Virus record (IMG/VR): IMGVR_UViG_3300025669_002088
Coordinates: 61,742 to 125,741 of that record
Length of the DNA stretch: 64,000 nucleotides
Strand: one strand, 5' to 3'
From: a virus
Notes under the pieces: model-generated
What the model was told of the DNA's origin: nothing
Database searches by the model: none
Seen by the model: the letters and a program-made list of their open reading frames with translations, nothing else
Position numbers and translations under genes: made by a program
Shown: positions 15,497 to 54,776 of the stretch, one piece after another
Position numbering within the stretch: the stretch's first letter is position 1
Layout of the letters: each line of letters begins with the position of its first letter

Positions 15497-15608
15497 TTCG
15501 CTACCTTAAGTTCTCAATCCCATGGTTGCAGTTTACTAAAGAAAAACAAAAAACACAAGCCTTCTTATCAAGGTAAGCTGTACGGGGTAGGATGATCCAG
15601 GAGGCGCA

Positions 15609-36887: not shown

Positions 36888-37483
36888 GATCGACCTCCGA
36901 TCCTTTTGAAGTATCTCGATGCTCCCCCGGTATCCACATAACCGCCAGGGACTCTCTTGAAGCGCCAGTCCTCTCGGGAGGGATCAAGATGCTCCCCTGC
37001 CCCCTCTTCTACTCTAACCTGGCTCGTGGAAACACCACTCTGTCCATCCAGGGCCTGAACGGGGCAACCCGGAGCACAATGCCACGTCTCCACCGGCTCC
37101 TTCCCATCCGCATCCGTGTGGTTCACCTTCTCGTAACCAGGAGGTTTGTGGTTGAACTGGATGTGACCATCCGCTTGTTCCTTGACCGTGTGCCCCTTGA
37201 AACCATCCACCATCACCGTCCCCAACCGAACGCAGTCAGGGTGATGCTGGAGGATCAGGTTAGCAGGCCAACGTCCCGCAGAGGATGTCGCCCCACTCCC
37301 CGTGGAGCCTCCAGTGATCCGCCAGTTCTCTCGATCTTCCCGGTCCTTGTACTCCCGCTCCTTCCCCACCTCAGTGGTTCGGAGGCGACAGGCACCAATG
37401 TTCAGACCACCCGTTCCGTATCCCATCACAGTTTGGGCCACAGTGCCCTCCAAGGGCTTCCTGGCAACGGTGATCACGATCAT
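36884..37483 (-). CDS. Split methyltransferase array: recognition module B5
   Basis: This 199-residue protein opens with M-I-V-I-T-V-A-R-K-P-L-E-G-T-V and G-T-G-G-L-N-I-G-A-C-R, then has G-R-W-P-A-N-L-I-L, a variable Asp/Lys-rich middle, C-A-P-G-C-P and the end G-G-A-S-R-Y-F-K-R. In fused enzymes this last motif (S-R-F-F-Y-C-A-K) leads into the SAM-binding part; here the gene stops. It is probably a target-recognition subunit. It overlaps both neighbours by four bases. Confidence 0.78.
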   Translation of the reverse strand: MIVITVARKPLEGTVAQTVMGYGTGGLNIGACRLRTTEVGKEREYKDREDRENWRITGGSTGSGATSSAGRWPANLILQHHPDCVRLGTVMVDGFKGHTVKEQADGHIQFNHKPPGYEKVNHTDADGKEPVETWHCAPGCPVQALDGQSGVSTSQVRVEEGAGEHLDPSREDWRFKRVPGGYVDTGGASRYFKRIGGRS

Positions 37484-38136
37484 CGCTTCACCTGTTTGAA
37501 GAACCTGGATGCCCCACCGACGTCACCATACCCTGGGGACTGTCCAGCGAAGCAGTAGCAGGCACCCGTGCCCCCTGAGATCTTGTCCCGATCCGCCCCA
37601 CGATCTACAGGAGGAGACTTGTGAACACCGCTCTGGGCATCCAACATCAAAACGGGGCACCCTAGATCACAATGCCAGTCAGGAACCGTCTCCATGCCCT
37701 CTGCGTCGGAATACCCATAGATTCCGGGAGCGTCTCTTTTCAATCCTACTGCCCCCACCTTCGTTGGGAGAGATCCGGCGACCGTATTGACGAGAGAAGC
37801 ATTGTTGGTCCCCTTTACCCTCTTTTGGCCCCGGCAAGTACAATCCACTGAATGTTGGATGATCAGGTTGGCGGGCCACCGACCCAGTGAACGAGTCCGC
37901 TCGATGCTCTCCCGCTGGGCTTGTTTAAACCTCTCATCATTGGACCGACTCCAGAAGGTCAGGTCTCGGTCTCCTCCCGTCCGGTTGTCCACAGAGGAGA
38001 TCAACGGGGTCACGAATGACTCGCCCTCGGTAGAGATGCGGCAACCGTCAATGTTCAGTGCGCCCGTTCCATGCTCCTGCACAGTTTGGGCTACAGTACC
38101 ACTCAGAGGTTTACGGGCTACGGTGATGATAATCAT
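37480..38136 (-). CDS. Split methyltransferase array: recognition module B4
   Basis: This 218-residue protein begins M-I-I-I-T-V-A-R-K-P-L-S-G-T-V...G-T-G-A-L-N-I-D-G-C-R. G-R-W-P-A-N-L-I-I follows and the end is G-G-A-S-R-F-F-K-Q-V-K-R. The insert between G-R-W-P-A-N and the C-terminal end differs from the other B modules, as expected if it sets sequence specificity. There is no catalytic or SAM motif. It is preceded by a small unrelated gene that separates it from A6. Confidence 0.78.
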   Translation of the reverse strand: MIIITVARKPLSGTVAQTVQEHGTGALNIDGCRISTEGESFVTPLISSVDNRTGGDRDLTFWSRSNDERFKQAQRESIERTRSLGRWPANLIIQHSVDCTCRGQKRVKGTNNASLVNTVAGSLPTKVGAVGLKRDAPGIYGYSDAEGMETVPDWHCDLGCPVLMLDAQSGVHKSPPVDRGADRDKISGGTGACYCFAGQSPGYGDVGGASRFFKQVKR

Positions 38137-38423
38137 CGGTGTTTGTACTCCATCTGACCTTCTTGCCAGTAGACTCCCGCCCGGATTAGCTCCACCAAGG
38201 CGTTGAGTTCCTTTCCGTCCAACCCGATGCTGGCCTTCTTCAAAATGTCAACCATGTCCGGTCGTCCGAGTCGTCCTAACTCGGCGTAGATGTCGTCTAG
38301 TGGGGCAAAGGTTGGGAGCGATTTGATCTGCTGGTCCCATTCCGCAGCCGTCTCGTGGACGAGTTCTGAACCTCGGGACGTATAGGAAACGACCCACTCC
38401 ATGTCACTAAGATCTGGCATCAT
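38133..38423 (-). CDS. Small unknown protein inside the methyltransferase array
   Basis: This 96-residue, acidic, helical protein starts at an ATG behind GGAGG and overlaps A6 and B4 by four bases each. It has no resemblance to the A or B modules and no recognised motif. It may be a passenger or an accessory subunit. Confidence 0.65.
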   Translation of the reverse strand: MMPDLSDMEWVVSYTSRGSELVHETAAEWDQQIKSLPTFAPLDDIYAELGRLGRPDMVDILKKASIGLDGKELNALVELIRAGVYWQEGQMEYKHR

Positions 38424-39229
38424 GGCCTCCTTGCAACCAGGAAGGGCTCCCAGGCGGGTTTTAGGGCTGTACCCCTACCCACCCATCGGATGGCGTCAGA
38501 AGTCACAGGGACGCCACCCTCTTTGTCATAGTACCCCTGCTCCCGAGCGAGCCTCATCCAGGGTCGATCCCCACCCTCTATGTCCTCGCCCCCGGCGATA
38601 CTCTTCGGGTTCCGACCGGCACCACTACCCACGATCCGAACCATCGCTCGTGTCGCTCCGTGGTGTTTGTCCAAGGCCCGTGAGACGTCGTGGGACTTCG
38701 GGAAGCCGGATCCATAAACCCACGCTTCGATCCGCAGCATCTCGAATCCCACGGCAACCATCGCTGCGGCCAACCGATGGAACGTCCGAGACCCACTGAA
38801 GATCTTAGCGATCCCGCCGGGATGAAGGATTCTGTAGACCTCCTGAAGCCACTCCTCGTGCCACGCTTGCATTGCGGCGACGTGCTCTAGCGTCCGGTTC
38901 TCCCACTCGGGCGTGGGACACACGCAGGGGTTCCCGCTGAACTTGTAGTGTCCGCACTTGGTGCAGTGATCATTCCGCTTCGGGATGTAGGAGGGTAGCT
39001 CACCCATCCTGGCCCCGAAGTCACCGCCGACGCCGGACCCGTCCCCGATGAGTTTCCGTTCCGTGCCTTTCCAGCGCTGCTGATTGCGGCGGGGTTCGAG
39101 CTTGTCCCACTCCCGACCCATGAACTCCAAGCCATAGGGGGGGTCACTGACGAGCGTCCCGATGGAACAATCAGGAAGAGCCCTCATCCTCTCTACACAG
39201 TCCCCGAGTTGAAGTTGCACTAGAGACAT
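38420..39229 (-). CDS. Split methyltransferase array: catalytic module A6
   Basis: This 269-residue protein starts at an ATG behind AAGGAG. It has L-G-D-C-V near the start, motif IV S-D-P-P-Y-G-L-E-F-M, a four-Cys zinc-like insert (C-T-K-C...C-V-C), L-H-P-G-G, a F-H-R-L-A helix and Y-G-S-G-F-P-K. It ends G-T-A-L-K-P-A-W-E-P-F-L-V-A-R-R-P. This is the N-terminal half of an N6-adenine methyltransferase (D-P-P-Y flips and holds the base). The SAM-binding motif I is missing. It must work with other subunits. Confidence 0.82.
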   Translation of the reverse strand: MSLVQLQLGDCVERMRALPDCSIGTLVSDPPYGLEFMGREWDKLEPRRNQQRWKGTERKLIGDGSGVGGDFGARMGELPSYIPKRNDHCTKCGHYKFSGNPCVCPTPEWENRTLEHVAAMQAWHEEWLQEVYRILHPGGIAKIFSGSRTFHRLAAAMVAVGFEMLRIEAWVYGSGFPKSHDVSRALDKHHGATRAMVRIVGSGAGRNPKSIAGGEDIEGGDRPWMRLAREQGYYDKEGGVPVTSDAIRWVGRGTALKPAWEPFLVARRP

Positions 39230-39849
39230 GCCTGTCTCCTTGCTACAACCAACGACTCCCAGGCCGGACGAAGAGATGTACCGTAACCGTCAAAGGTCCG
39301 GGCTATATCGCTCCGAGCAACCGTGACTGGAACGTCCCCCTGGTGGTAGTTGTTCCAACGCTCCCAATAGGCTGCTCCCCCGTGTAATCCCTCATTCTCT
39401 TTCGTCCGACCCGCAGAAATGACCCGACGGTTGTGGCCTACGACAGGACGAGTTTTTTCGCTGACAGCCAGAGCCACCGAGTTGCTTTTTCCCGTCAACA
39501 CCTCTGAGTCTACAGCCTTGGAGACACTCAGTGATTTGGGGAAACCGCTACCATATAGCCAGGCCTCCACATGTAGGATCTCAAAGGACTGAAAGGACAT
39601 CGCAACTATCAAATGATGCATCAGCTTAGGGGCAGTGAACACCTTGATGAGACCCCCCGGTTGGAGCACCCTAAATGCCTCCCCTAACCACTGTGAGTGC
39701 CATCCCTGTGTCCCGTCTCGGAAGTGATCCCACTCCTGATTCAAAAAACCAAGGCCGTAAGGTGGATCACAGACCACAACCCCCACAGACTCGTCAGGAA
39801 GCTCCTGCATCAGAGTAACGCAGTCCCCGAGTTGGTATTGGATGATCAC
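39220..39849 (-). CDS. Split methyltransferase array: catalytic module A5
   Basis: This 209-residue protein uses a GTG overlapping the A4 stop (GTGA), behind AGGGAG. It has V-C-D-P-P-Y-G-L-G-F-L, L-Q-P-G-G-L-I-K-V-F and Y-G-S-G-F-P-K, and ends L-R-P-A-W-E-S-L-V-V-A-R-R. It lacks the Cys insert of A1, A3 and A6 and is the most diverged A module (G-F-L-N-Q instead of E-F-M-G). No motif I is present. It overlaps A6 by ten bases. Confidence 0.8.
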   Translation of the reverse strand: MIIQYQLGDCVTLMQELPDESVGVVVCDPPYGLGFLNQEWDHFRDGTQGWHSQWLGEAFRVLQPGGLIKVFTAPKLMHHLIVAMSFQSFEILHVEAWLYGSGFPKSLSVSKAVDSEVLTGKSNSVALAVSEKTRPVVGHNRRVISAGRTKENEGLHGGAAYWERWNNYHQGDVPVTVARSDIARTFDGYGTSLRPAWESLVVARRQACL

Positions 39850-40517
39850 AGCGGTTTTCTCCCTACCAGGAAGGGTTCCCACGCAGGCTTGAGCGCTGTG
39901 TTGTACCCAGCATAGCTCTGGGCCTGGGGGGAGGTCGGGGCCGTGATGTCCCACTGCTGACCGACAGTGTCTTCCTGCTCCCACCACATCGGCTGGGGAC
40001 AGCGACCTTTGCGTTGCCCTACCGCCACTACAGTGCGCTCAACCCCAAGATGCTTATCCAAGGCACGGGGCACGTCGAGGCCCTTCGGGAAACCTGAACC
40101 ATAGTCCCAGATCTCCAGACGGAGGATCTCCAATCCAGCCTCGGTCATCGCTCCAGCGAGCCTGTGGAAGGTCCGGGTGGCACTGAATATCTTGGCGATC
40201 CCTCCTGGCTGAAGGATGCGGTGGACTTGCTGGAGCCACTGAAGGTGCCACGCCTGCATCGCCCGCTGGGAATCCAACGTCAGATCCAACGCAGGTTTGC
40301 CCGCATGGATGCCGTGATTCATCCCCCTCGTAGAACGAGAGGTGGAGGACTCGGATGTGTTCGGACGGGAAGCGCTCCCCCGCATGTCTAACTTGTCCCA
40401 GTCCTCACCCATGAACTCCAGCCCATAAGGAGGATCGCTGACCACCGCCCCGATGGAGCAATCTGGGAGGGTCTTCATCCGCTCTACACAGTCCCCCAGT
40501 TGAAGCTGTACGATCAT
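39846..40517 (-). CDS. Split methyltransferase array: catalytic module A4
   Basis: This 223-residue protein starts at the ATG overlapping the FmdB-like stop (ATGA). It shows S-D-P-P-Y-G-L-E-F-M-G, L-Q-P-G-G-I-A-K-I-F, F-H-R-L-A-G-A-M and Y-G-S-G-F-P-K, and ends L-K-P-A-W-E-P-F-L-V-G-R-K-P-L. The final G-R-K-P-L duplicates the A-R-K-P-L with which B modules begin, marking where the ancestral gene was cut. No motif I or HPTVKP is present. Confidence 0.82.
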   Translation of the reverse strand: MIVQLQLGDCVERMKTLPDCSIGAVVSDPPYGLEFMGEDWDKLDMRGSASRPNTSESSTSRSTRGMNHGIHAGKPALDLTLDSQRAMQAWHLQWLQQVHRILQPGGIAKIFSATRTFHRLAGAMTEAGLEILRLEIWDYGSGFPKGLDVPRALDKHLGVERTVVAVGQRKGRCPQPMWWEQEDTVGQQWDITAPTSPQAQSYAGYNTALKPAWEPFLVGRKPL

Positions 40518-40693
40518 GAGGAGTATCCGTCGTTTGCCCAGCCGCCGCCTGCCAGCTTGAAGGTGGACTGGGAGACCTTCTTCTGGACCTGGTCCCCCCC
40601 GCACTTGGGACAGGGAAGGGTCGGGTCGTCTACTTTGACAAGCTGTTCAAAATCATGCTCGCAATCAGGGCAGCTATATTCGTACATTGGCAT
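40514..40693 (-). CDS. FmdB-family zinc-ribbon protein
   Basis: This 59-residue protein matches the FmdB family end to end: M-P-M-Y-E-Y-S-C-P-D-C near the start, L-P-C-P-K-C-G-G and the C-terminal F-K-L-A-G-G-G-W. Four Cys form a zinc ribbon. FmdB proteins were named as putative regulators but their role is unclear. It sits between modules B3 and A4 of the methyltransferase array and overlaps both, so it may belong to the complex. Confidence 0.85.
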   Translation of the reverse strand: MPMYEYSCPDCEHDFEQLVKVDDPTLPCPKCGGDQVQKKVSQSTFKLAGGGWANDGYSS

Positions 40694-41138
40694 GGGAATC
40701 ACTCACCTGTTTGAAAAACCGAGCCACCGAGCCTGTGTCCCCTACTCGGGCGTTTGCGCCGAAACCATTGAACAACCAATCGGGATGCTGACTCAAACCG
40801 TACTGAGGTGCCCTTTGGCTTCCTGCACTGTGAGCACCCACAAGCGCCCCCTGGTGGGACATCTCAGGCACGGGACAATCCCCCTCACAGTCTACTCCGC
40901 AGCCAGGTGCATGGGAGAGGATCAGGTTAGCAGGCCAGCGGCCCGTGAAGGTCTCGGGGTGGTAGGAGTGCCCGGCACCCCCGCCGAAGGGCTTAGAGCC
41001 GTCATCCCACCTGTTGACCGTAATCGGTTCCGAGCCGACCCGACAAGCATCGATGTTCAAAGCGCCTGTGCCCCATCGTTGCACGTTGGTGGCAACGGAA
41101 CCTTCTAAAGGCTTCCTGGCGACGGTGATCACGATCAT
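40674..41138 (-). CDS. Split methyltransferase array: recognition module B3
   Basis: This 154-residue protein begins M-I-V-I-T-V-A-R-K-P-L-E-G-S-V...G-T-G-A-L-N-I-D-A-C-R and has G-R-W-P-A-N-L-I-L and C-G-V-D-C-E-G-D-C, ending near A-R-F-F-K-Q-V plus a short extra tail. Its second half is nearly identical to that of B2, while the stretch between C-R and G-R-W-P differs completely. This is the pattern expected if that stretch sets specificity after duplication. Confidence 0.8.
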   Translation of the reverse strand: MIVITVARKPLEGSVATNVQRWGTGALNIDACRVGSEPITVNRWDDGSKPFGGGAGHSYHPETFTGRWPANLILSHAPGCGVDCEGDCPVPEMSHQGALVGAHSAGSQRAPQYGLSQHPDWLFNGFGANARVGDTGSVARFFKQVSDSHANVRI

Positions 41139-41587
41139 CGCTTCACCTGTTTGAAGAACCGAGCCGCAGAGCCTGTATCCCCTATGCGGGCATTTGCACC
41201 GAAACCATTGAACAACCAATCGGGATGCTGACTCGGACCATATTGCGGAGCCTTCTGACTTCCTGCACTGTGGCTTCCCACAAGGTCTCCCTGGCGAGCC
41301 ATCTCGGACACGGGACAACCTCCTTCACAGTCTACTCCGCAACCGGGTGCATGGGAGAGGATCAAGTTAGAAGGCCAACGTCCCAACTGTGATGGTTGAG
41401 ACATCCTGCCGTTTCTACCGTCTGCGTCAAAGGGAGCATTTCCAGCCGCTCTGTTCCATTGTGGGACGGAGGGTGGAACACCAGTAACTCGACAACCGTC
41501 GATGTTCAGCCCCCCGGCACTCCATGTGAGAACCGTAGCAACAACTGTCCCGTCCAGGGGCTTCCTGGCGACTGTGATGATGATCAC
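41135..41587 (-). CDS. Split methyltransferase array: recognition module B2
   Basis: This 150-residue protein starts at a GTG overlapping the A3 stop (GTGA). It begins with I-I-I-T-V-A-R-K-P-L-D-G-T-V and G-G-L-N-I-D-G-C-R, has G-R-W-P-S-N-L-I-L and ends A-R-F-F-K-Q-V-K-R. The C-terminal half is a near copy of B3. There are no catalytic motifs. Confidence 0.8.
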   Translation of the reverse strand: MIIITVARKPLDGTVVATVLTWSAGGLNIDGCRVTGVPPSVPQWNRAAGNAPFDADGRNGRMSQPSQLGRWPSNLILSHAPGCGVDCEGGCPVSEMARQGDLVGSHSAGSQKAPQYGPSQHPDWLFNGFGANARIGDTGSAARFFKQVKR

Positions 41588-42351
41588 GCCCGCCTCCCCA
41601 CCACGAAAGGCTCCCAACAGGACTTGAGGGCAGTTCCGTAGCCCCAGAAGCGGAGACCCTCAGGAGACGCTGGGACCGTCACGGGCACGTCAGTGGCCTT
41701 TTGGTGCGCCCCTACCACCCCCCGTGCGATCCCACCGAAACCGAGACTGTCTAGTGCCATGACGCCCCTTTTGTGCCCTATGACCTTCCGCTGGTCAAAG
41801 ACCCCCTTGGTCATGTCAATGGCCCTGGAAATGTTGTGGTTCTTGGGGAACCCTGAGCCATACACCCAAGCCTCCAAGCGGAGCACCTCGAACCCGGCAT
41901 TGGTCATCGCTGTCGCCAGCCTGTGGAACAGCCGGGGGCTGCTGAATGCCTTAATGAGCCCACCGGGCCGCAGGACACGAAGAGCCTCAGACAACCAGCC
42001 CTCATGCCACTGTTGGATGGTCCTGTTCTGGATCGCTTTGAAGTTAGGAAGGTCGGGAATGGCACACTGGCACTTCCGCTTCTCCTGATCCCAAAGCCAG
42101 CGGTTACAGGTCCGACACTTGAGGTTGGCGCTGGCCCCATAGTTGGGTCGCCCAGCGTTGGGTCCGGTGCCGGTGGAGAACCCGCTGTTGCTCATCTGCC
42201 CAACGTGGCTGTCGCCCGTGTCGAGCTTGTCCCACTGCATCCCCATGAACTCCAGCCCATAGGGAGGATCACTGACGATGGAGCCTACGGACCCCTCGGA
42301 CATTGACTTCATCAGGGCAACACAGTCCCCAAGTTGAAACTGGGTTATCAT
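41584..42351 (-). CDS. Split methyltransferase array: catalytic module A3
   Basis: This 255-residue protein starts at the ATG overlapping B1 (ATGA). It has S-D-P-P-Y-G-L-E-F-M-G, a four-Cys insert (C-R-T-C...C-Q-C), L-R-P-G-G-L-I-K-A-F, F-H-R-L-A-T-A-M and Y-G-S-G-F-P-K, and ends L-K-S-C-W-E-P-F-V-V-G-R-R-A. This is the catalytic half of an adenine methyltransferase without motif I. Confidence 0.82.
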   Translation of the reverse strand: MITQFQLGDCVALMKSMSEGSVGSIVSDPPYGLEFMGMQWDKLDTGDSHVGQMSNSGFSTGTGPNAGRPNYGASANLKCRTCNRWLWDQEKRKCQCAIPDLPNFKAIQNRTIQQWHEGWLSEALRVLRPGGLIKAFSSPRLFHRLATAMTNAGFEVLRLEAWVYGSGFPKNHNISRAIDMTKGVFDQRKVIGHKRGVMALDSLGFGGIARGVVGAHQKATDVPVTVPASPEGLRFWGYGTALKSCWEPFVVGRRA

Positions 42352-42779
42352 CTCGTTACCTGTTTGAAGAACCTGGATGCCCCACCGACGTCACCCGCAT
42401 AGTTCGTGGCACTCCCGGTACACCAGCCAACGACCCCCAGCCCAACGACCAACTTGTTGGCGTTTGACCCGCCGTTCTTCGTAACGCCACTCTGATTGTT
42501 TAACTCCCTGACGGAGCAATCTCCCTGGAGGATGAAGTTAGAGGGCCACCTTCCGGCAACATGTGAGGTGTACCGTTCCCCAACCGATCTCATCACCACT
42601 GGACCCTGCCAGTCATAGTCAACAGAGGTACCTCCGCTACGACTGTCTATAACTGCCCGTTCTGTGTCCCCAATTTCCAGTCTACAAGCATCGATGTTCA
42701 AAGCGCCTGTGCCCCATCGTTGCACGTTAGTGGCAACGGAACCTTCTAAAGGCTTCCTGGCGACGGTGATCACGATCAT
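42348..42779 (-). CDS. Split methyltransferase array: recognition module B1
   Basis: This 143-residue protein starts at the ATG overlapping A2. It begins M-I-V-I-T-V-A-R-K-P-L-E-G-S-V...G-T-G-A-L-N-I-D-A-C-R, has G-R-W-P-S-N-F-I-L and ends G-G-A-S-R-F-F-K-Q-V-T-R. The first 32 residues are nearly identical to those of B3, but the rest differs, evidence of shuffling among modules. Confidence 0.8.
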   Translation of the reverse strand: MIVITVARKPLEGSVATNVQRWGTGALNIDACRLEIGDTERAVIDSRSGGTSVDYDWQGPVVMRSVGERYTSHVAGRWPSNFILQGDCSVRELNNQSGVTKNGGSNANKLVVGLGVVGWCTGSATNYAGDVGGASRFFKQVTR

Positions 42780-43396
42780 TTTCGCCCCACCAGGAAGGGC
42801 TCCCACGCTGGTTTCAGCGTTGTTCCATATCCCTTATATTTCTTGGCGCTGTCCGAGGCAGGCTCCGTGATAGGGACCACAGAACGATCAGTCAGGTCAT
42901 CCGGGTTGTTCCAGTTGTAACACCCGGAGCCGGTGTTCCCATGACCCTTGCGGGTGGAGAGAACCTCCCGTTCAGCACCAAGCGACTTGTCCAGGGCCTT
43001 GGCGACATCCAGGCTCTTCGGGAAACCCGAACCATAAACCCAGGCTTCCAGGCGTTCGATCTCGAACCCTGCCTGAACCATCGCCGCACCCATCCGGTGG
43101 TATTTTCGTGTGCCACCGAAAACCTTGATGAGGCCCCCTGGTTGCAAGACACGATGGCACTCACGCAACCAGATCGTTGCCCACTCCTGAAAGGCACGGC
43201 TGTCGGAGGCACACCCCGTGTATTCCTCAGTGTTCTCCGGTTCCATGCCCACTTCTTTCCAGGGGGCATCCCAGCTCTTCCCCATGAATTCCAGTCCGTA
43301 GGGAGGATCGCAGATGACGGCTCCGATGCACCCCTCCGGGAGATCCCGCATCAATCGGGCGCTGTCTCCGAGTTGTAACTGAAGGAGTTTTCTCAT
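42776..43396 (-). CDS. Split methyltransferase array: catalytic module A2
   Basis: This 206-residue protein starts at the ATG overlapping A1. It shows I-C-D-P-P-Y-G-L-E-F-M-G, L-Q-P-G-G-L-I-K-V-F, Y-H-R-M-G-A-A-M and Y-G-S-G-F-P-K, and ends L-K-P-A-W-E-P-F-L-V-G-R-K. There is no Cys insert and no SAM-binding motif. It is directly followed by B1, so an A-B order like that of the ancestral fused enzyme is kept here. Confidence 0.82.
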   Translation of the reverse strand: MRKLLQLQLGDSARLMRDLPEGCIGAVICDPPYGLEFMGKSWDAPWKEVGMEPENTEEYTGCASDSRAFQEWATIWLRECHRVLQPGGLIKVFGGTRKYHRMGAAMVQAGFEIERLEAWVYGSGFPKSLDVAKALDKSLGAEREVLSTRKGHGNTGSGCYNWNNPDDLTDRSVVPITEPASDSAKKYKGYGTTLKPAWEPFLVGRK

Positions 43397-44115
43397 ACCA
43401 ATGCCTTCCTCCCTACTAGGAAAGGTTCCCAGCAGGACTTCAATGCTGTGCCATATCCGTCGCACAGGACGGGACTGTCATCAGGGAGACCCAACCGTTT
43501 CCGCATGGACCGCCCAACATCCAGGGACTTGGGCCAGCCTGAACCATAGGTCCAGGCATCGATCCGTAGGATCTCAAACCCGGCCTCTCCCATCGCCCAA
43601 GCCAGCCTGTGGAACGTTCTCGTTCCGCTGAAAATCTTAGCAATCCCACCTGGCTGGAGTACTCGCAGGGCGCTCTTCAACCAGAGAGTGTGCCACAGAC
43701 CAATGGCCAGGAGATGATCCTGCATCCCACCACCTGTCACACCATCTGGGGTGTCCTCAGGCAGCTTGCGCCGCTTCCCAATAGGCTTCCAATGATCGTG
43801 GGGTCTCTCACAGGGACATTTGCGCCGTGTCCCCCGCTCCATCCCACCACACACTGAACACGTTCTGTTGGGAGTGCTGTACCGAGAGGTGGATGAATAC
43901 TTGGGTAACCGAAGGGCACCATCGCCTTCTTTGAACCCCTTGAAGTTCCTGATGGACTTGGGGACTTTGTCTCCAAGTTTCTCCCAGTCAAGGGCCATGA
44001 ACTCCAAGCCGTAAGGTGGGTCACAAACGATGGCCCCCACGGAACCCTCCGGGAGAGCATCCATCAGCACTGTGCAGTCCCCAAGTTGAAGCTGTGTGCA
44101 ACTGTAAGCGCCCAC
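43393..44115 (-). CDS. Split methyltransferase array: catalytic module A1
   Basis: This 240-residue protein has a GTG start behind AGGGGG. It has V-C-D-P-P-Y-G-L-E-F-M, a four-Cys insert (C-S-V-C...C-P-C), L-Q-P-G-G-I-A-K-I-F, F-H-R-L-A-W-A-M and Y-G-S-G-W-P-K, and ends L-K-S-C-W-E-P-F-L-V-G-R-K. It is the first A module after the SAM-binding gene, from which it is separated by nine bases. Confidence 0.82.
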   Translation of the reverse strand: MGAYSCTQLQLGDCTVLMDALPEGSVGAIVCDPPYGLEFMALDWEKLGDKVPKSIRNFKGFKEGDGALRLPKYSSTSRYSTPNRTCSVCGGMERGTRRKCPCERPHDHWKPIGKRRKLPEDTPDGVTGGGMQDHLLAIGLWHTLWLKSALRVLQPGGIAKIFSGTRTFHRLAWAMGEAGFEILRIDAWTYGSGWPKSLDVGRSMRKRLGLPDDSPVLCDGYGTALKSCWEPFLVGRKALV

Positions 44116-44124
44116 AATGTCCCC

Positions 44125-45474
44125 CTAGAAAAACACATCGAGTTCAGGCTCTTCCTGAGGCTCTTCCGTGACCAACAGGGTGGTGCCCACGTCCGAAATG
44201 ATGATGGGACGACTTCCCTCGTCACCGAGAAGGGTTGCGGAACCCTTCTTCGCTCCGAGCCTGCTGCGCCACAGTTCGGCCCGAGCGGTGGCGATCTCCA
44301 AATAGGGTTCCTCCCGCTCCATCCCCCTGAAATTGTGGCCTGTCTCCATGCACGCCAGCCCTGTGGACCCGGAACCCAGGAAGGGATCGAGGACCATATA
44401 GGGGTCCAGCACGTCCGACGCCTTAGTGTCCACCGTGGGGGTAGGCACCTCGAAATCCTCAGGGGTCTTGGGCACGTCATGGAGGATTTTTACCATTAAA
44501 TCAACGGGTTTTACCGTTGGATGAAAGTTCCGAATTCTGCTGTTACCGTGCCCGGCCCCCGCCGCACCGTGAGCGGTTCCAGCGTCCCCCTCCTTCCGAC
44601 CTACGGCCTCCGCTCCGCTCTTCCCACCCAGGGCATCACAGCCCAGTTCCCGCTCGCCCCTGTCGGCCTTGGGAACGTAGTGGAAAGGATGACAAGGTGG
44701 TGTGCTCGCTGAGGGAAGCTTCGCCAACTCATCCAACGGCAGGGCAATGGCAATGGCGTCCCTGATCTCGAACCCGGAATCCTCTACACTGCAAGCACCC
44801 GTCGATCCCCACGGTTCTGCATCAGGAGCGATAAGCAGGAGATGTGCCCCAGGTTTCAAGACTCGGTGCAACTCCTTCGACTGCTCATCGGTGGGCGTCC
44901 CCCGTGTGATCAACCCGCACAGCGAGTTGTCTGGGCGCTTGGCCCATTCAGCCCACTTGATAAGCGCTAAGTCCTCAAGATAAAGGGCCTTCTCGTCCGG
45001 CGGGGAGATCAAGGTCAACAAATAGCTGATCAGATCATCCGGGGGTGTCCACCCTTCCGAAGCATATGGGGGGAGTTCTACTTCTGCGGTGGACTCAGGA
45101 GTAGACCAATCGAAGTCCCGCTTCTCCTCTGGAGGCGTCCAACCCGTTGCCTGAACGGGAGGTACAGGGTCGATCAAGTCCTCGATACCCCATGGCTCCG
45201 TCTGCGGCGGCAAACAGGTACCCAGCAGATCCTCCTTGGATTCGTATCCTGTTGCAACAGCAGGAGTCGGAGCCTTTACTGGAGTCTCCTCCAGGATCTC
45301 AACAGGAGTTTCCACAGGAGTCTCGATCGGGGTCTCCTCAGGGGGGAGTTCTACTTCTGCGGTGGACTCAGGGGTAACTAACAGACACTCCTGTGATGTT
45401 TCCACCGAGGTCTTGACCGAAGTCTCCGCTGGGGTGTCCGTCTCGGGGGTAAGGAAGTCAAAAAGGTCTTTCAT
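44125..45474 (-). CDS. Split methyltransferase array: shared SAM-binding subunit C
   Basis: This 449-residue protein has residues 1-140 acidic and Thr/Pro/Glu/Val-rich, with an internal duplicated T-P-E-S-T-A-E-V-E-L-P-P. Residues 145-245 resemble a worn A module (L-H-R-V-L-K-P-G-A-H-L-L, G-F-E-I-R-D-A), but motif IV reads S-P-P-D, without the aromatic residue. At 264-277 comes F-H-Y-V-P-K-A-D-R-G-E-R-E-L, exactly where the B modules stop, then N-F-H-P-T-V-K-P (316-323) and the SAM-binding motif I D-P-F-L-G-S-G-S-T-G (363-372). This is the only such C-terminal part in the array. It probably serves all A and B modules. Confidence 0.85.
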   Translation of the reverse strand: MKDLFDFLTPETDTPAETSVKTSVETSQECLLVTPESTAEVELPPEETPIETPVETPVEILEETPVKAPTPAVATGYESKEDLLGTCLPPQTEPWGIEDLIDPVPPVQATGWTPPEEKRDFDWSTPESTAEVELPPYASEGWTPPDDLISYLLTLISPPDEKALYLEDLALIKWAEWAKRPDNSLCGLITRGTPTDEQSKELHRVLKPGAHLLLIAPDAEPWGSTGACSVEDSGFEIRDAIAIALPLDELAKLPSASTPPCHPFHYVPKADRGERELGCDALGGKSGAEAVGRKEGDAGTAHGAAGAGHGNSRIRNFHPTVKPVDLMVKILHDVPKTPEDFEVPTPTVDTKASDVLDPYMVLDPFLGSGSTGLACMETGHNFRGMEREEPYLEIATARAELWRSRLGAKKGSATLLGDEGSRPIIISDVGTTLLVTEEPQEEPELDVFF

Positions 45475-45485
45475 TGTAGTCCTCG

Positions 45486-48400
45486 TCAGTCCAGTTTCTT
45501 AATCTTGTCCAATTGATTCCCTACCGATTCCTGCTGCTGCGCTGACATAACCGGATCGCTGCTTGTGAGAAGTCTCCGGCATGGCCACTCTACCCGTGCG
45601 TTGAACATCTCGAAGGGCTTTTGGTCACGAGATTTGAGGCATTGGAACTGCACCCGGTTAGCCTTTGACAGTTCCTCATCGATCCAAGATGCCGTCACCA
45701 CATCAGCGGAACGCTCACAGTTGTGGGAGAGCAACGGCCCCGTCTGGTACTCGTGATCCCCCCCTACCTCCAGGTCATACACAGGGGCAATCTCCCCCGT
45801 AGGATCACACGCAACAACCTGTAGCACATGCCAGTTGTCCAACATCTGTTGGAGGAAGGTTGCATCCTCATCCTGAACACCTCTACGGTGTAACACGTCC
45901 AGGACGTACCGCACGGTGTCCTCAGGAACGACACCCCTTTGTTTCACACGATGCACCTGATTGTATAAGGACCGTCGAACAGTCCCATCCTTAACCAAGC
46001 GATACGGAAGATGCCTTTTTACGAGTGCCCGGAACATCTTCGGGAAGGGGTAGACCTGATCCGAACGTTTCCTCTTCGGCACGGTATTCAACCGCTTCAT
46101 CGCTCGTTCCTGTTTCCAGGGCTCACTGAAACCCACCAATCGAACGAAGGAGCAACAAGATTCCCAACCCCTTATCCGCAAAGTCCATACAGTGTAAGAT
46201 TTATTCGTTACCTCCAGCTTCTGTTGCCGTGACGACAAATGCGAATCTATCCCCATGGCCTGGAACAACAGTTGGACCTGTCGCAAGAGAGAATCCGTTT
46301 TGGAGGAGACTCCGATAATACCCCGATTGTTTATCCAACCATCAGTATCGAAAAGACCTTTCAGGAAAAAAATGACAGACTGTTGGGATGCTTCTCGCAC
46401 TATCCGAGGTACTGCAACACATCTTTTTTCCGCCAAGTCCTCGAACCAACGTTTAAAGGATGCGTCGTACAACTCCATGTCAAAGGACCCTGGCCGACTG
46501 GCATAATGGTAACAGGCGACCTTTTTTGCCCCATGCACCCTTTCCAGCGAGTTTATGAGCAACCTTTCAATTGTGACTTCCTTTCGATTCTCCGTGAAGG
46601 CAACACCATGGGGTCTCACAGAACCATCCCCATGCCAAGCCCCAAGCAGATATGCCAGGTCATCACTCAGAGATACGGTATTACCCCAAGACTCAGGAAG
46701 TACAGGAGTCACCTCTGGGAAGGATCCCCCACGAGAACCAAGCAACCAGTCTCCTGGTTTCAGGTTTTCCACCTGTTCCCATTCGAGTTGCTCTTCACGG
46801 AACACCCGCACACGATGGTCAGCGGTACATTCTAATTTAGAACCTCTGTCGGTTTGAACACACCAGATGGGCCGATCTCCCTGAGGATAGACCCCCAACA
46901 CATCCTTCCACCCGGTATTGGACCAGACCCGGTCTCCCACCACAGCTTCACGGATAGGAAAGGCCCCACGGGCAAAGCGTAGTAATGTCAGGGACTTACA
47001 ACACTCATTGCTATATGACAAATGAGTCAGATCATAGCGGGCCACACCACCCTTATCCTTGGATTTCATCGCAGAACGATAGCCCTCACGATTGATCTGG
47101 AACAGGGCCACTACGGGCAGACCCTGACCCTTGTTAAAGGACATTGCCATCCGCTTGAGATCCCGGATCACCTCGTTCAGCCGGTCGGTGGTGCTGGAAA
47201 CCCACTTGCGTGGGGCCATCAGTCCGGCGTGGTCTACAAAAACAAGGCTGAAGGGATCTTGGCTGAACAGCAGTTCCGCTTTCTGCCGCATGTCGATCAC
47301 GGTGAAGTCGCTTTTTTCCGGGTCCGCCACCTCGATGTGGATCCTCCCGTAGTCACAAAACCAGGGCTGCCCCGTTTCGGGGTCTTTGGTCTTGATCACG
47401 GGGATCCCGTTCATGTCCGGGATCACAAAGTCCTCTAAGAATTTCTCAGCCTCAGGGTGCCACTCGGCCAGTGTGCCATCTCGAATGTTGACGTAGGGGA
47501 GGCCCACGGCGGAGGTGGGATCCTTTTGCAACCCCATCTTGTGTCTGATTGCATCGAACTTCCTGTGGAAGGAATGCATCGAGTACAAGAGACGTCGACA
47601 CTGCTGATAGGGCATCTCCAAGGAGAAGATCAGAGAGTTCCATTTGTACCAGATTGCCTGATTGTATGCCCAGTTCAACATCAGGGTCGAGTTGTGCACA
47701 ATGAAGCCGTTAGCCACAAAGTTTGCGGTACCAGGTACGGAGAGGTCATACGTCATCTCCCCCCCATCAGGAACAATCTCCACCAAACGATCCCAATGGA
47801 TAGTGCTTTGAACTTTTTTAAGCGCTATCGGATTTGCTGACGCCAAAGCTAAACGAACAGCGGTGTCACGTTGAATCGCTCCTTTGCGTTTAGCATGTCG
47901 AGCATAGTGCCACCCCCCTTGGCGGGTTTTAGCTCTTACCGAGTCATCTATCTCAGAGAGCAATGCAGGGGGTACCCAATCTGTCCCCTCATTGGAAGAA
48001 ACTGCTGCAAGAGCTTCTTTAACAAAAGCTCCCTTCCCTGCTATCCTGACATGAGACAGAAATTGTCTCTTACCCTCATTGGTAGTCACTAACAGAGTCC
48101 AATATCTTCGGTACTCCCCCTGATAGAGAACATTGATCGGAGCGATGGTCGAGGACACACCCACTCGTTGCAAAAGAGCTTGGATGTCCCAGGCGAGTCG
48201 TCTGCTTTTTGTCGTGTAATGTGCTTTCGGTCTAGGACGCCTTCCTCTGCCGGATGTCTCAGTCCTAACTGTCCCGTCTGCAGCCCATAAAGCAGCTAAA
48301 AGCACCCACACCTGTTTGTCCGTCATCTGCCACATTTCGAGGGGGATATGTTTGTCCCCTGATGTGCAACCCCATAACCCCAATCTTTCTAGTGTCAGTC

Positions 48401-49643
48401 TAAGAGGAGACGTCCAAGGATGTCTGGGACTGTTACCGGTAGACTTTGAAACCCGGATCATCCGACTACTCGGACGATCAGCCATGAAACGGAAACTAGC
48501 AGTCCTAGACTTTACAGTCCCAGCATACTCCTTGTAACCAAGTGCCTTTAGACACCGAACAAAGTCATCCAGTATCTCAGGGTTCCCATTAGTAAAGGAA
48601 ATGTCATCCTTGATGTGCCCATCCCCTAACAAATAACCAATGAGTGCGATCTCTTCATCCGAGAAGGGTGACAGCAGAGTGCACCCCGGCATCCCCCCCG
48701 GCATTGCAACCCAAGAACCCGGTTGGAGATCCTCAGCGTTAATCCAACCCTCAGGTGTCAGGAACGGGTGATTCCCGGAAACCCTGATTTGCCTACCCGA
48801 TTTGGATGTGATCCGAAAAATGGGTCGCACACCACTTTGAACAACGGTACTTGCTTGTCCTCGTGTTATTTCCCAGCTTTTCTCATCCAGAGTATGCACA
48901 AGGGGGGCGTGTCCCAAGGTATACAGATCAAAAACGGTATGAAGTTTTCCTGTGGCAAGATCAAAAATACGGGTGTCTCCCGCTACACACTTGAGCCCGC
49001 CTGTAAAAGCGGCGTGAACCCACAACTCGTGCCGCTTGGCTCCATTCAGTGCCGTATCCATCTGGAAGATGCCTGTATGCTGGCCAACTCCCGCACGAGG
49101 ATTCTCAGCGATCTTTTTGTACTCGGCCTGGAAATCTGTACCGTCCCTGGTGACCTCCCCGCTGAGTTTCCCACCCAACGTGGGGGCCACGATGTCGTGG
49201 CTCTTGTCCAGGATGTACTTGATGGCAGCGGCGGGGCCTTTGAGCTTGAGGACTTCTTTACCAGAACGAAACTCCCGTCCTACACGGACAATATCCGCAG
49301 CATCCTGGAGCACTTCTCCGACCAAACGGATCCGACGTTCCTCGGCCAGATCCGTCACCCTGGTGATGAAATCCCCTCGGGTGATCACCTGGAGACTGCT
49401 CAGGTGAGCCAGCCTCTTGACGATCTCGTCCTCCCGAAGCTGTTCAAAGTGATGGCGGACTGAAAGGTTGTCCGGTACGTGGTTGTGCATCCTGACAAAG
49501 TCTTGGACGTGCCGCCACAGCACCTGATCTTCGTTGGTATTGAATTCCAACCCTGAGGAGCGGAGTACGAAGTAGTTATCGTACAATTCTTTTCTAGGGT
49601 CGCCAGAACCGACCATAAAACAGGAACGGAGAAGAACCTTCAT
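45486..49643 (-). CDS. DnaB-type replicative helicase with two inteins
   Basis: The 1385-residue precursor keeps a DnaB-like N-terminal helical domain and RecA motor. The P-loop is F-T-G-G-L-K-S-T (split by intein 1), Walker B is L-V-F-V-D-H-A-G, motif H3 includes V-V-A-L-F-Q-I-N, and motif H4 is N-E-C-E-R-S-A-D-V-V (split by intein 2). The spliced protein would have about 524 residues, close to normal DnaB. It unwinds DNA ahead of the polymerase. It overlaps the loader-like gene by ATGA, and the methyltransferase array begins 11 nt after its stop. Confidence 0.9.
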   Translation of the reverse strand: MKVLLRSCFMVGSGDPRKELYDNYFVLRSSGLEFNTNEDQVLWRHVQDFVRMHNHVPDNLSVRHHFEQLREDEIVKRLAHLSSLQVITRGDFITRVTDLAEERRIRLVGEVLQDAADIVRVGREFRSGKEVLKLKGPAAAIKYILDKSHDIVAPTLGGKLSGEVTRDGTDFQAEYKKIAENPRAGVGQHTGIFQMDTALNGAKRHELWVHAAFTGGLKCVAGDTRIFDLATGKLHTVFDLYTLGHAPLVHTLDEKSWEITRGQASTVVQSGVRPIFRITSKSGRQIRVSGNHPFLTPEGWINAEDLQPGSWVAMPGGMPGCTLLSPFSDEEIALIGYLLGDGHIKDDISFTNGNPEILDDFVRCLKALGYKEYAGTVKSRTASFRFMADRPSSRMIRVSKSTGNSPRHPWTSPLRLTLERLGLWGCTSGDKHIPLEMWQMTDKQVWVLLAALWAADGTVRTETSGRGRRPRPKAHYTTKSRRLAWDIQALLQRVGVSSTIAPINVLYQGEYRRYWTLLVTTNEGKRQFLSHVRIAGKGAFVKEALAAVSSNEGTDWVPPALLSEIDDSVRAKTRQGGWHYARHAKRKGAIQRDTAVRLALASANPIALKKVQSTIHWDRLVEIVPDGGEMTYDLSVPGTANFVANGFIVHNSTLMLNWAYNQAIWYKWNSLIFSLEMPYQQCRRLLYSMHSFHRKFDAIRHKMGLQKDPTSAVGLPYVNIRDGTLAEWHPEAEKFLEDFVIPDMNGIPVIKTKDPETGQPWFCDYGRIHIEVADPEKSDFTVIDMRQKAELLFSQDPFSLVFVDHAGLMAPRKWVSSTTDRLNEVIRDLKRMAMSFNKGQGLPVVALFQINREGYRSAMKSKDKGGVARYDLTHLSYSNECCKSLTLLRFARGAFPIREAVVGDRVWSNTGWKDVLGVYPQGDRPIWCVQTDRGSKLECTADHRVRVFREEQLEWEQVENLKPGDWLLGSRGGSFPEVTPVLPESWGNTVSLSDDLAYLLGAWHGDGSVRPHGVAFTENRKEVTIERLLINSLERVHGAKKVACYHYASRPGSFDMELYDASFKRWFEDLAEKRCVAVPRIVREASQQSVIFFLKGLFDTDGWINNRGIIGVSSKTDSLLRQVQLLFQAMGIDSHLSSRQQKLEVTNKSYTVWTLRIRGWESCCSFVRLVGFSEPWKQERAMKRLNTVPKRKRSDQVYPFPKMFRALVKRHLPYRLVKDGTVRRSLYNQVHRVKQRGVVPEDTVRYVLDVLHRRGVQDEDATFLQQMLDNWHVLQVVACDPTGEIAPVYDLEVGGDHEYQTGPLLSHNCERSADVVTASWIDEELSKANRVQFQCLKSRDQKPFEMFNARVEWPCRRLLTSSDPVMSAQQQESVGNQLDKIKKLD
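45720..47003 (-). other. Intein 2 of the DnaB-type helicase (H4 site)
   Basis: This 428-residue intein begins at Cys881 after Y-S-N-E and ends L-L-S-H-N before C-E-R-S-A-D. It contains T-A-D-H-R-V, L-L-G-A-W-H-G-D-G and L-K-G-L-F-D-T-D-G endonuclease motifs, and V-Y-D-L-E-V. Excision restores motif H4. Confidence 0.92.
47691..48989 (-). other. Intein 1 of the DnaB-type helicase (P-loop site)
   Basis: This 433-residue intein begins at Cys219 after G-G-L-K and ends V-H-N before S-T-L. It contains G-N-H-P-F-L (splicing block), the endonuclease motifs L-I-G-Y-L-L-G-D-G and A-L-W-A-A-D-G, and Y-D-L-S-V-P near the end. Excision restores the ATP-binding loop. Confidence 0.92.
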
Positions 49644-50560
49644 CGCTTTTTACCCCACTTGTTCTTCTTCTCCGGGGCATCCCCCTCCGTACCATCCAGC
49701 ATACTGAACGTCCCATTTGCTAAGGGGCTGGGACCAACCACCTTAACAGGTGACCCCCCCGCAACTTCCTCCTCAAAGGCTGCTGCCGTCTCGTCTGCCA
49801 CCTCCTGCATGGGTGGGCGTTTCGTCCGGGATGGGGACCTCGTCGTTGGTACTACCCCAGAGGGGACGCCGGGAACCACAGGGAAGGCCGCATCCGTCTT
49901 CTCAGGCAATGTCAGATTGTCCCACTCGCTCAGGAATTCCCCCACTGAATGACTGTACGAAATGTGCCCTTCCTGCAGGGGATACGAGGGCGAGTCAACC
50001 ACCCAGGTCACCTTGTTGAGGTGCTCCCGGTGCCGCAGGGCCTCCAACAACACCTCGGGCATCGCCTCGTTCCGAGCAGCCTTGACCCCGCACACAAGGA
50101 CCAGAAGGACCGGGGGTTCCACAAGATCTACCAAGGCATCATATCGTTGGATATCAGCCCGCTGTCGCATCTGATCCACGTCAGCGTCCTTGACATCCAG
50201 CTTGTAGGACAACCAGGCATCCATCAGATCCGCATCGGACACCACGAGAAAACCCCAGGTCGGGGGCATTCGAGCAGCGACATGTTTCATGTGACTGCGG
50301 AAAGTAGGGCGAGATCCTGTGATCTTGAGGTTGCTTTCGGTAAGGTCGTCACCTCGAAGAGGGGACTGGTCTACGGGGTCAGCGGACAGGAGGCCCTTCC
50401 ACCCCCTGTTAATGTTCCGAGCTACATCCCGCACCATCACGCAGGGGCACGGTTGTGTCCTGTCTATGGGATGATCCAATCCCATAGACAGAGGGATTAC
50501 TCCACGCCCTTTGCAAATTGGGCAATCAGGAGTTCCATCCCCCTGTGGGTAATCCGTCAT
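49640..50560 (-). CDS. Helicase-loader-like protein with zinc motif
   Basis: This 306-residue protein starts at an ATG behind GGAGG. Residues 10-40 hold C-P-I-C-K-G-R-G...C-P-C, a DnaJ-like zinc-binding pair. Residues 95-205 look like an AAA+/DnaC-related loader core (L-V-V-S-D-A-D-L-M-D-A-W, P-P-V-L-L-V-L-V-C-G, T-W-V-V-D-S-P), but I see no P-loop. The C terminus is a disordered, charged tail. Its position between two helicases in one operon fits a role in loading DnaB. The assignment rests mainly on layout. Confidence 0.65.
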   Translation of the reverse strand: MTDYPQGDGTPDCPICKGRGVIPLSMGLDHPIDRTQPCPCVMVRDVARNINRGWKGLLSADPVDQSPLRGDDLTESNLKITGSRPTFRSHMKHVAARMPPTWGFLVVSDADLMDAWLSYKLDVKDADVDQMRQRADIQRYDALVDLVEPPVLLVLVCGVKAARNEAMPEVLLEALRHREHLNKVTWVVDSPSYPLQEGHISYSHSVGEFLSEWDNLTLPEKTDAAFPVVPGVPSGVVPTTRSPSRTKRPPMQEVADETAAAFEEEVAGGSPVKVVGPSPLANGTFSMLDGTEGDAPEKKNKWGKKR

Positions 50561-53500
50561 GCAGGTCCTCCGCCACCCTGAAGAGTAGACTTCAACTCTG
50601 TGAAAAGGTCCGAGATGTCGTTGTCCGCCGAGATCACGAACTCGTCATCATCTACTCCCTTCAGCCGCTTCCCGAGCACCGCTTCGATGAGAACCATTTT
50701 CCGGTGGAGTGTTTTCATCACGGCGTGGTCAATAGTATCGGTTTCCCCGAAGCCTTTTGCACGGGCCAGCATGTGGATCACATAACAACGGTCGTGGGTC
50801 GATCCGATACGGATCATCCGTCCGATAAGCTGGAGGAAATCGCCCGCTGACCAGGGCGTATCCATACAAATAAGGGCCTTGGCTGCCTGAAGGTTGATCG
50901 ATTCCGCCCCCGCAGCCGTCAAACACACCACACGCACATCCGAGTCGGGGTTCTGGAACTCCTGCATAGCGTCATCACGCTGGGCGGTGTTCTCGTCCCC
51001 TGTGATCCGCACCGTGTTGATTTTGTGCTTCCTGAGACGGGCAACGATGATGTCCACGAACTTTTTGAAGCGGCTGTAAACGATCACCTTCTCGTCTGCA
51101 AGGTCCCCCTCGATCAGGAGGTCCACAAGGGCATCCAGCTTCGGGGACTCGCCCGTGATGCCGATGAGGCCCAGGTCGTTCACGATCTCCTGGTGGTAGA
51201 TCAGGGCCGTGAGCTTGGACGTCTCTTTCTCGGTGACCTTGGTGCCCTCCCCAATCAGAAGAAGATCTCCCTTTGCCTCTATATATTTGTCCTCTTGGGC
51301 CGTTGTTAGATCGACCTCAATGTTACGCATCACCACAACCGGGAGATCCTTGGCCACGGCATGTTTCGGACGCCCCAGGAACACGGGATCAATGAGATCC
51401 CGGAACTCCTTGATCTTGTCCTTGTGGTACCCCACGATAACGGGGATTTGTCGGTTGGACCGGGGGATCTGTTGCATCCGGGTAATGCAGAAATAGAGCA
51501 TGAACTGATTTTTGCTCATCATCCTGCCCCCGGACTGAAACAAACCGGGAGCCACAATCTGATAGATGCCATAGCCCTCCATCAGATTGTTTTTGATCAG
51601 GGTTGCTGTAAGAGCCCAGATCCTGGCTGACTTTGTGGACAGATGACGGCACATCCGATGAACCTGGGTGGCCGGGTTTTTAAACACCGTACAATTCGAA
51701 ACTAACACACCCCCACCAGCAAAGTATCGGTGGTGGTCCTCTACCTCAATATCATAAACGTATTTAATGTGTGGGTTTTTAGGAGACCAACTTTCTTTGG
51801 CTGTAATCCAGTCAGTCACGACACTCTTAGTTGGAGTTAATTCCGTTTCTGCCCACTGTAAAGGACTTTTTCCTGGGAACTTGTACTCCACATCAGGTAA
51901 GGAACCGGGTAGTAGATCCAAGAATTTCTGTGCCTCGTCTTTTGGCAGATACAGATAGGGGTAACTTTTACGAATCCCCGACTTACGGTCAGAGCGTTCC
52001 TTTGTTGTTTTAATCTCAGCCTTCACACCCCATCGCCAATATAACCACCCAGCCAGAAGTTCCTGTTCGTCCCTAGAAAAACCTTGTGTGTGTAAGGTGA
52101 TCGTGTGGGTCGTCTGTCCGTCCTTACACAGATAGGTCTGAATACTTCCGTCATCAGCATACCAAACAGCTAAACCCAAAGGACCAACATGAGTCAACCA
52201 ATCCTTGGTAACTCGTTTCTTTCCCTCTCTCCAAACCCGACCTTGTACCAGGAGAGATGTGACTGCTGCATTCCCATTGACACGAAAGCGCTCAACAGGA
52301 GTTTTTACTCCTGTTTTGGGCTGATACCCAGCGGTGGTGTCATCAATCTTAGAAACCCCTAATGAGGAAAGCACATCTCTTTTAAATCGCAGATACCTTC
52401 CTCTAGACGCTGACTGAACGAAAACCACACCCCACAATTTTCTTTTCGGGAATGAAATACTAGCGTCACCTAACAGGCCACCTAAAATCACCTGCTTCTG
52501 GAACTCCGTGGGTGTCTTACAACAGAGATGTCTAACGGAATGACCCACCCTTAAGTGCTGTACTGATCTCGTGTGCCCCCCAGGAATATACACTTCATGG
52601 TTTGGGGTTACCCGAACACTTTTGGAAAACCGAAATTGTAATTTGACGAGAGCTTTCCGTTTTCCCTTGCAGATGGGAACTTGATGCCAAGCTACAACTC
52701 GTTTCGGTTCTACCTCCCCTGTGTCGGGGTTCTCAGAAAGAACAGTCACTGGCATCCTTTTGGTGACGACTCTACCTATCAGTTCAGTGGTCCCATCCGC
52801 CAACTGTATTGGGGTGAAATAGTCAAAACACTCGTCCGCAATTAGGATGTATTTCTCCCAATCCTGGATGTGCCGAAAATCCTGTAAGGCACTCCGGTAA
52901 CCCATCACGATCACGGTGGGACCATCGGACTCCTCGAACGTCTTCCGAGCCTTTTCCCGTTGCGCCGGGGTGCCCTGACACAAGACAACCTTGATTCCCG
53001 TGGTGAACTTTGAGAACTCCCGGACCCACTGTGGGGCGGAACTCTTCGTAGTTAACACCATTGACTTGAGATTAGGGTCTGACCCCCAAAGGTAACAAAG
53101 AGCACCTATTGCCTCTATTGTGTTGTGATTAATAAAGCCATCTGCCACAAAGGCGTGACTCGGATCATCTACAGCAATGTCCGCCACCATCTGAACGTCT
53201 TCCTCAATGGTTTCCACCGGGTCGTAAAACAGATGCCGGTCACAAACTGCCTTTGTTTGATGATGCGCTTTGGTGGTCTTGGCACCCACCTGGCGGGACA
53301 CCTCCAACAGTCGGCCCATGAATTCGTAAGTAGGACTCCGTCCCCCATTGCGTATGTTGTTCAGGGTTTTTTCGAAAGACACTCCAAACTGTCTGATCCC
53401 ACTGCCCCGTCGAGAGGCATTGCTTCCTGACACAGTCACACGAGCTAGGATCTCTTGCTTGAGTTCCTCTATCAGCTTCCGAGCATGGGGAACAACATCA

Positions 53501-54732: not shown

Positions 54733-54776
54733 CGGCACCTCCCTCCTGTACTACTCAACCGGGAACGAAAAAGGAG

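Follow-up and report, generated by a model that had tools for sequence, protein, structure and literature searches.

Known split and multispecific methyltransferases

The described enzymes nearest to the array reported here are the one-piece phage beta-class DNA methyltransferases (MTases; PF01555, PHROG 67, many mycobacteriophage 'DNA methylase' genes), which are found alone in most viral loci and in which a catalytic region (A), a target-recognition region (B) and a SAM-binding region (C) follow each other within a single chain. When the separate A, B and C proteins of the array are read in line, the same motifs appear in the same order; however, the one-piece enzymes have DPPY and motif I in one chain and lack the A-like ('pseudo-A') region of C, whereas the array encodes three kinds of protein, with A and B in several copies. 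The beta-class N6-adenine MTases CcrM, M.BceJIV and M.RsrI resemble in fold a natural A-B-C fusion related to the array (scores are given below) but are single polypeptides, each with one fixed specificity.

Separate specificity subunits, degenerate partners and multiple specificities are each known from other systems. In Type I systems (reviewed in PMC3874165), the specificity subunit HsdS is separate from HsdM and has two exchangeable halves, which is its likeness to the array; there, SAM and catalytic motifs are both in HsdM, which belongs to a different methyltransferase family, whereas within the array the two are found in different proteins. METTL3-METTL14 and MTA1-MTA9 resemble the array in having a partner subunit whose catalytic motif is degenerate, but their catalytic subunit also binds SAM; here, the A proteins appear to lack motif I, and the SAM and catalytic motifs are divided between subunits. 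Bacillus phages SPR and phi3T encode multispecific C5 methyltransferases that derive several specificities from one methylating core, the feature for which they are compared with the array, although their several recognition segments are in one chain and the chemistry is of the C5 type.

Naturally two-piece DNA methyltransferases are known in the C5 class, namely M.AquI and M.EcoHK31I (PMC3404938). These share with the array the split into cooperating polypeptides and differ from it in class, in the number of pieces, in carrying motif I and the catalytic motif both on the larger subunit, and in having no arrays of alternative subunits. No three-piece or array-type methyltransferase with one shared SAM half was found in the literature searched, which included few subscription papers and no preprints. 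PHROGs lists A-like (phrog_6025) and B-C-like (phrog_3008) phage families apart, so that simpler splits may exist in annotated phages. The locus described below would be a split enzyme of a large phage, in which a single cofactor part is shared and the parts for chemistry and for sequence reading are each present six times.

Organization of the array

The window, i.e. the whole 64,000-nucleotide stretch analysed, comprises positions 61742 to 125741 of the 125,741-base IMG/VR virus record IMGVR_UViG_3300025669_002088. An ORF on its minus strand (44125-45474) encodes C, the predicted SAM-binding subunit of 449 aa (assigned from the ORF, Pfam, motifs and alignment), and is followed on its 3' side, on the same strand, by A1, A2, B1, A3, B2, B3, A4, A5, A6, X, B4, B5 and B6, in this order. 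The catalytic-type subunits are encoded by A1 (43393-44115, GTG start), A2 (42776-43396), A3 (41584-42351), A4 (39846-40517), A5 (39220-39849, probable GTG start) and A6 (38420-39229); DPPYG and YGSG(F/W)PK are present in 6 of 6 (YGSGWPK in A1), motif I in none, and in A5 WESLVV replaces WEPFLV. The target-recognition-type subunits are encoded by B1 (42348-42779; VARKPL, GRWPSN and GGASRFFKQ), B2 (41135-41587, GTG start), B3 (40674-41138), B4 (37480-38136), B5 (36884-37483) and B6 (36336-36887). In the B proteins, (M/V)I(V/I)I(T/H)VARKPL forms the N-terminus, GRWP(A/S)N lies further in, and SRFFKQ or a sequence close to it is the usual end, which B6 lacks. X (38133-38423) is a 96-aa ORF coupled within the array, with no Pfam match.

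Most neighbouring genes of the array overlap by 4 nt; C and A1 are 9 nt apart, and a gap of 156 nt precedes A4. Judged from the sequence, the 4-nt overlaps are a pattern of translational coupling. A frameshift joining A to B was considered and rejected. The 4-nt start/stop overlaps occur in the orders A-A, A-B, B-A and B-B, which does not fit a fixed A-B fusion; furthermore, a WEPIVVARKPL-like strand that is present once in the one-piece enzymes is found twice in the split genes, where A ends with it and B starts with it, and a −1 shift joining A to B would duplicate this VARKPL strand, which counts against the frameshift reading.

DnaB-like and SNF2-type helicase genes adjoin the array beside C (45486-49643 and 50557-54738, minus strand), each with intein splicing and LAGLIDADG domains. 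Just past the other end of the array, on the opposite strand, a protein encoded at 35380-36339 (+) has a PARP catalytic domain match (E 5e-10).

Motifs of the C protein

The Pfam N6_N4_Mtase match of C is confined to residues 312-396, and motif X (HPTVKP, residue 318) and motif I (DPFLGSG, residue 363) are both intact, as a preliminary description made from this DNA alone had stated. The A-like segments that it had pointed out are likewise retained, RVLKPG at residue 204 and GFEIRD at residue 234. They are part of the pseudo-A region (residues about 147-260), which is related to A by profile comparison (probability 82) and in which Y151, G187, R204, G209, H211 and EDxGFExRDxI are invariant in nine C proteins. 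The absence of DPPY from C, the central claim of that description, was borne out: DPPY is missing from window C and from all 13 C-type proteins (including that of the window; see below), and its absence from 13 of 13 marks a conserved trait rather than a chance mutation. The catalytic motif IV that a stand-alone DNA methyltransferase has was thus found neither in the window C chain nor in any of its relatives.

The segment SPPD (residue 157), which had been taken for the motif IV position, proved to be misaligned. In an alignment of window C with 18 one-piece relatives that locates the DPPY column, SLPDCSIDSVVTDPPY stands against SPPDEKALYLEDLALI, placing SPPD at the conserved SLPD loop that precedes strand beta-4. 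The equivalent loop reads STP, SPPE or SPPP in the relatives of C, and this lack of conservation, together with the one-piece alignment, rules out SPPD as motif IV. The DPPY column corresponds approximately to EDLA/DLAL of C (residues 167-171); its exact register is uncertain, and DPPY is restored by no reading.

C was further described as carrying an acidic tail with a duplicated segment. An acidic, P/E/T-rich stretch does exist (32 acidic and 6 basic residues), and TPESTAEVELPP is duplicated within it (residues 34 and 125), but it is an N-terminal extension (residues 1-145) and not a tail. The stretch is predicted to be disordered (mostly pLDDT <50) and is absent from every other C-type protein compared; instead, the C proteins of eight other genomes carry a fused B module at the N-terminus. 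The suggestion that it is a docking platform is accordingly without comparative support, and a general platform of this kind was rejected because no other C protein carries the stretch. At the opposite end, the C proteins finish with a short acidic-hydrophobic motif (window 44128-44150 and relatives: ELDVFF, DLFDLFD, FDDFFGLDE, LFDFFGE), possibly a short binding motif; several one-piece enzymes have similar ends.

The same split in other genomes

About 160 viral loci were retrieved with the A or B profiles. Nearly all have one-piece A-B-C genes, and one contig, L081 (IMGVR_UViG_3300037042_003620), has the split layout and encodes a C protein with a degenerate A-like region in common with window C. 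A viral scan with window C alone found no relatives, and the C-type family was reached by viral scan solely through an alignment that included the L081 protein. Scanning with the degenerate A-like region detected C-type genes in L166-L174 (L171 and L172 have an identical gene pair and were counted once), and a scan of genome contigs yielded two more, L248 and L249, each belonging to a metagenome-assembled bacterial genome; no plasmid relatives of the pseudo-A region were found. Altogether, there are 13 C-type proteins in 12 genomes, i.e. 12 proteins in 11 genomes besides the window.

The division of motifs is the same throughout the 12 genomes. DPFxGSG is present in 13 of 13 C-type proteins and DPPY in 0 of 13, whereas none of the separate A ORFs has motif I and every one with a readable motif IV has DPPY. 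Motif X of the C-type proteins is an uninterrupted HPTVK except in L081, where it contains an intein, and in L249 (HPTIK). Thus, of the features of a beta-class (PF01555) enzyme, here distributed over several subunits, motifs I and X are in C, and motif IV, (D/N/S)PP(Y/F/W), is in A only (DPPY in 6/6 window copies, never in C). The order motif IV, recognition region, X, I within one fold is found in the natural A-B-C fusion of L167. The A:B:C gene counts are 6:6:1 in the window, 5:6:1 in L248, 2:7:1 in L081, 3:2:1 in L167, 1:3:1 in L173 and 1:2:1 in L174; the 4.5-kb contig L249 has two C-type genes. The statement that C is the only SAM-binding subunit holds for the A/B/C array but is limited to it, because two more MTases, each with its own motif I, are encoded on the contig (at 18890-20281 of the window and at 14581-16374 of the contig).

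Structure models and origin

Modelled alone, window C reached a pLDDT of 63 and a pTM of 0.47, too poor for placing the pseudo-A region, and its two halves mostly match methyltransferases separately, at low confidence. The model of the L167 A-B-C fusion, in which A extends from residue 1 to about 174 and C starts at 299, has a pLDDT of 81 and a pTM of 0.81. Its best solved match, CcrM (6pbd), covers residues 1-537 (Z 24.2, rmsd 2.8, 219 aligned residues), and M.BceJIV and M.RsrI score Z 23.9 each. Given the boundaries of A and C, the CcrM match suggests that the methyltransferase fold runs from A into C, with the qualification that one-piece enzymes are inside the alignment of the L167 model, which favours the packing of A on C.

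In the C-region tree (midpoint root), a single clade (SH-aLRT 99) amid 59 one-piece enzymes comprises all 13 C-type proteins. In the A tree, which has several long branches, 17 of the 20 separate A proteins fall into one set at 99, and the A proteins of L081 and L174 are grouped apart from these at 100; support for the grouping of the six window copies is 85. RVLKPGGHLL- and EDAGFEIRD-like segments are retained in the pseudo-A region of C, as in the one-piece enzymes, whereas they are changed in the window A proteins. These features would fit an origin in which a one-piece gene was duplicated and the copies then lost complementary parts.

Exchange of halves among B genes

B3 is a mosaic that resembles B1 at its 5' end and B2 further 3': its DNA identity with B1 is 97-100% across the first 90 nt, and that with B2 is 70-95% across the second half. 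In L081, the first variable halves of B2 and B5 are 74% identical, compared to 38% for the second halves, whereas B5 and B6 are 86% identical in the second half and 19% in the first. L081 B3 and L174 B1 similarly share 89% in the first half and 30% in the second, and the C proteins of these two contigs are 93% identical. Read from these comparisons, B consists of two exchangeable halves flanking GRWPAN, as expected for target-recognition modules, and its position and variability suggest that it sets specificity.

Proposed assembly and alternative explanations

We interpret window C, with a probability of about 0.7, as the shared half that binds SAM in a trisected DNA methyltransferase of the beta class (N6-adenine or N4-cytosine type), in which A would provide catalysis and B target recognition. 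This interpretation is based on the complementary loss of motifs, the single C against many A and B genes, conservation in 12 genomes, the shuffling of B halves, and the B-C and A-B-C fusions; the 4-nt gene overlaps along the array and the position of the L081 intein, at a site usually of strong conservation, were also counted in its favour. The preliminary idea of a shared SAM-binding subunit that has lost catalysis is supported by the motif split between A and C, the copy numbers, the monophyly of C, the fusions and the L167 model, while the argument from SPPD drops out. C would bind SAM via motifs X and I, A would complete the Rossmann fold of C in trans, with its DPPY then facing the C-held SAM, and B would dock onto both and set sequence specificity; the fusions argue that B and C physically associate. 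The pseudo-A region may be either a retained, non-catalytic structural surface, as favoured in this scheme, or a METTL14-like pseudo-protomer. Exchange of A and B would alter the methylated sites, and the simplest purpose would be protection of the phage DNA against varied host restriction systems. Phage MTases are described as able to protect against restriction (PMC4190342), and the array may, by analogy, do so for its phage. The presence of the split layout in eleven other genomes indicates that the layout is real, and it could let the phage reshuffle the DNA sites that are marked. If true, many methylation specificities would be obtained from few genes and be changeable through recombination, and a natural three-part scaffold for choosing methylated DNA sites would be at hand; whether one cofactor half serves many catalytic halves becomes a testable question.

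With regard to partner choice, any A might pair with any B on the single C, in which case 13 genes would yield up to 36 specificities, tuned by recombination of B half-modules and with the catalytic subunit also exchangeable; we put forward such a combinatorial counter-restriction enzyme only tentatively. It is plausible, if short of an even chance, that the trisected enzyme instead has fixed partners, each A working with one particular B and C being common to six enzymes rather than 36 combinations. The equal numbers of A and B in the window, and the variability of both over most of their length, would agree with fixed pairs, but the counts differ in other genomes (L081 has 2 A and 7 B, L173 has 1 A and 3 B), gene order gives no A-B pairing, and the turnover of B modules contrasts with the 93% identity retained by the C proteins of L081 and L174.

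Against the trisected enzyme as such, the A-like region of C might in principle complete C's own fold and leave no room for A, and the two C-type genes in L249 and the two self-contained MTases elsewhere on the contig also count against it. If C folded in cis as a complete pseudo-methyltransferase, it would be a non-catalytic partner of A, somewhat like METTL14 or MTA9, as the conservation of the pseudo-A region and its profile relation to A would allow. We consider this unlikely: a C that was complete in cis would deprive the A proteins, which lack motif I, of SAM; in the model of the natural fusion, the methyltransferase fold extends across both A and C; and the halves of the window C model match methyltransferases separately, albeit at low confidence. 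The missing end of B6, WESLVV in A5 and a frameshifted B gene in L166 could be signs of an array in decay, made up of remnants of duplicated one-piece methyltransferase genes and largely or wholly inactive. However, the thirteen ORFs are open, overlap and have conserved motifs; 12 genomes have the split in common, with C as one clade; and the differences between B2 and B3 after GRW are mostly synonymous (21 synonymous vs 13 other codon changes in 82 codons). These findings make such decay improbable. Least of all do we expect the A and B proteins to act by binding and masking DNA sites instead of methylating them, with C playing no part in this, given that every A protein with a readable motif IV retains DPPY and that C is fused to B.

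Interrupted A genes, inteins and an additional fusion

In three relatives, an A gene is interrupted inside the catalytic motif (L166:12780-12929, L169:11575-11724 and L173:12410-12559, plus strand), a pattern found in IMG/VR only in these contigs. The DPPYG codons, ending in GGT, are immediately followed by a stop (TAG in L166, TGA in L169 and TAG in L173), and after a gap of 11-12 nt G(L/I)EFMG begins at GGA, GGA and GGT, respectively. The first ~100 nt of these A genes can form a very stable hairpin (z = −6.15, −4.55 and −5.77; 0/200 shuffles each), the closing arms of which are CCGUAGGGC and the DPPYG codons, so that the interruption sits at the hairpin base; 5 of the 37 pairs are changed on both sides among the three sequences. 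The arrangement of a Gly codon, a stop and a second Gly codon resembles translational bypassing in T4 gene 60, where UAG comes after a Gly take-off codon and the landing codon likewise encodes Gly (PMC11194080). By this analogy, the three A genes are candidates for programmed bypassing; alternatively, the interruption is a small gene-breaking insertion.

The A genes of six phages, L166, L167 (6145-8064), L169, L170, L171 and L173, have an intein-like insert at one common position (YG^C...GN^SGFPK). In the C-type gene of L081 (8160-9992, +), the intein is inside HPTVKP (FHP, intein, TVKP). One B gene of L166 (7806-8311, +) is spread over two reading frames and is either broken or affected by a sequencing error. 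In L168 (17036-18628, +), a B-type module is in frame with an apparent C5 methyltransferase (LSLFDGLSCGQIAL, GGSPCQGFSFAG), which reads as a recognition module joined to a different chemistry.
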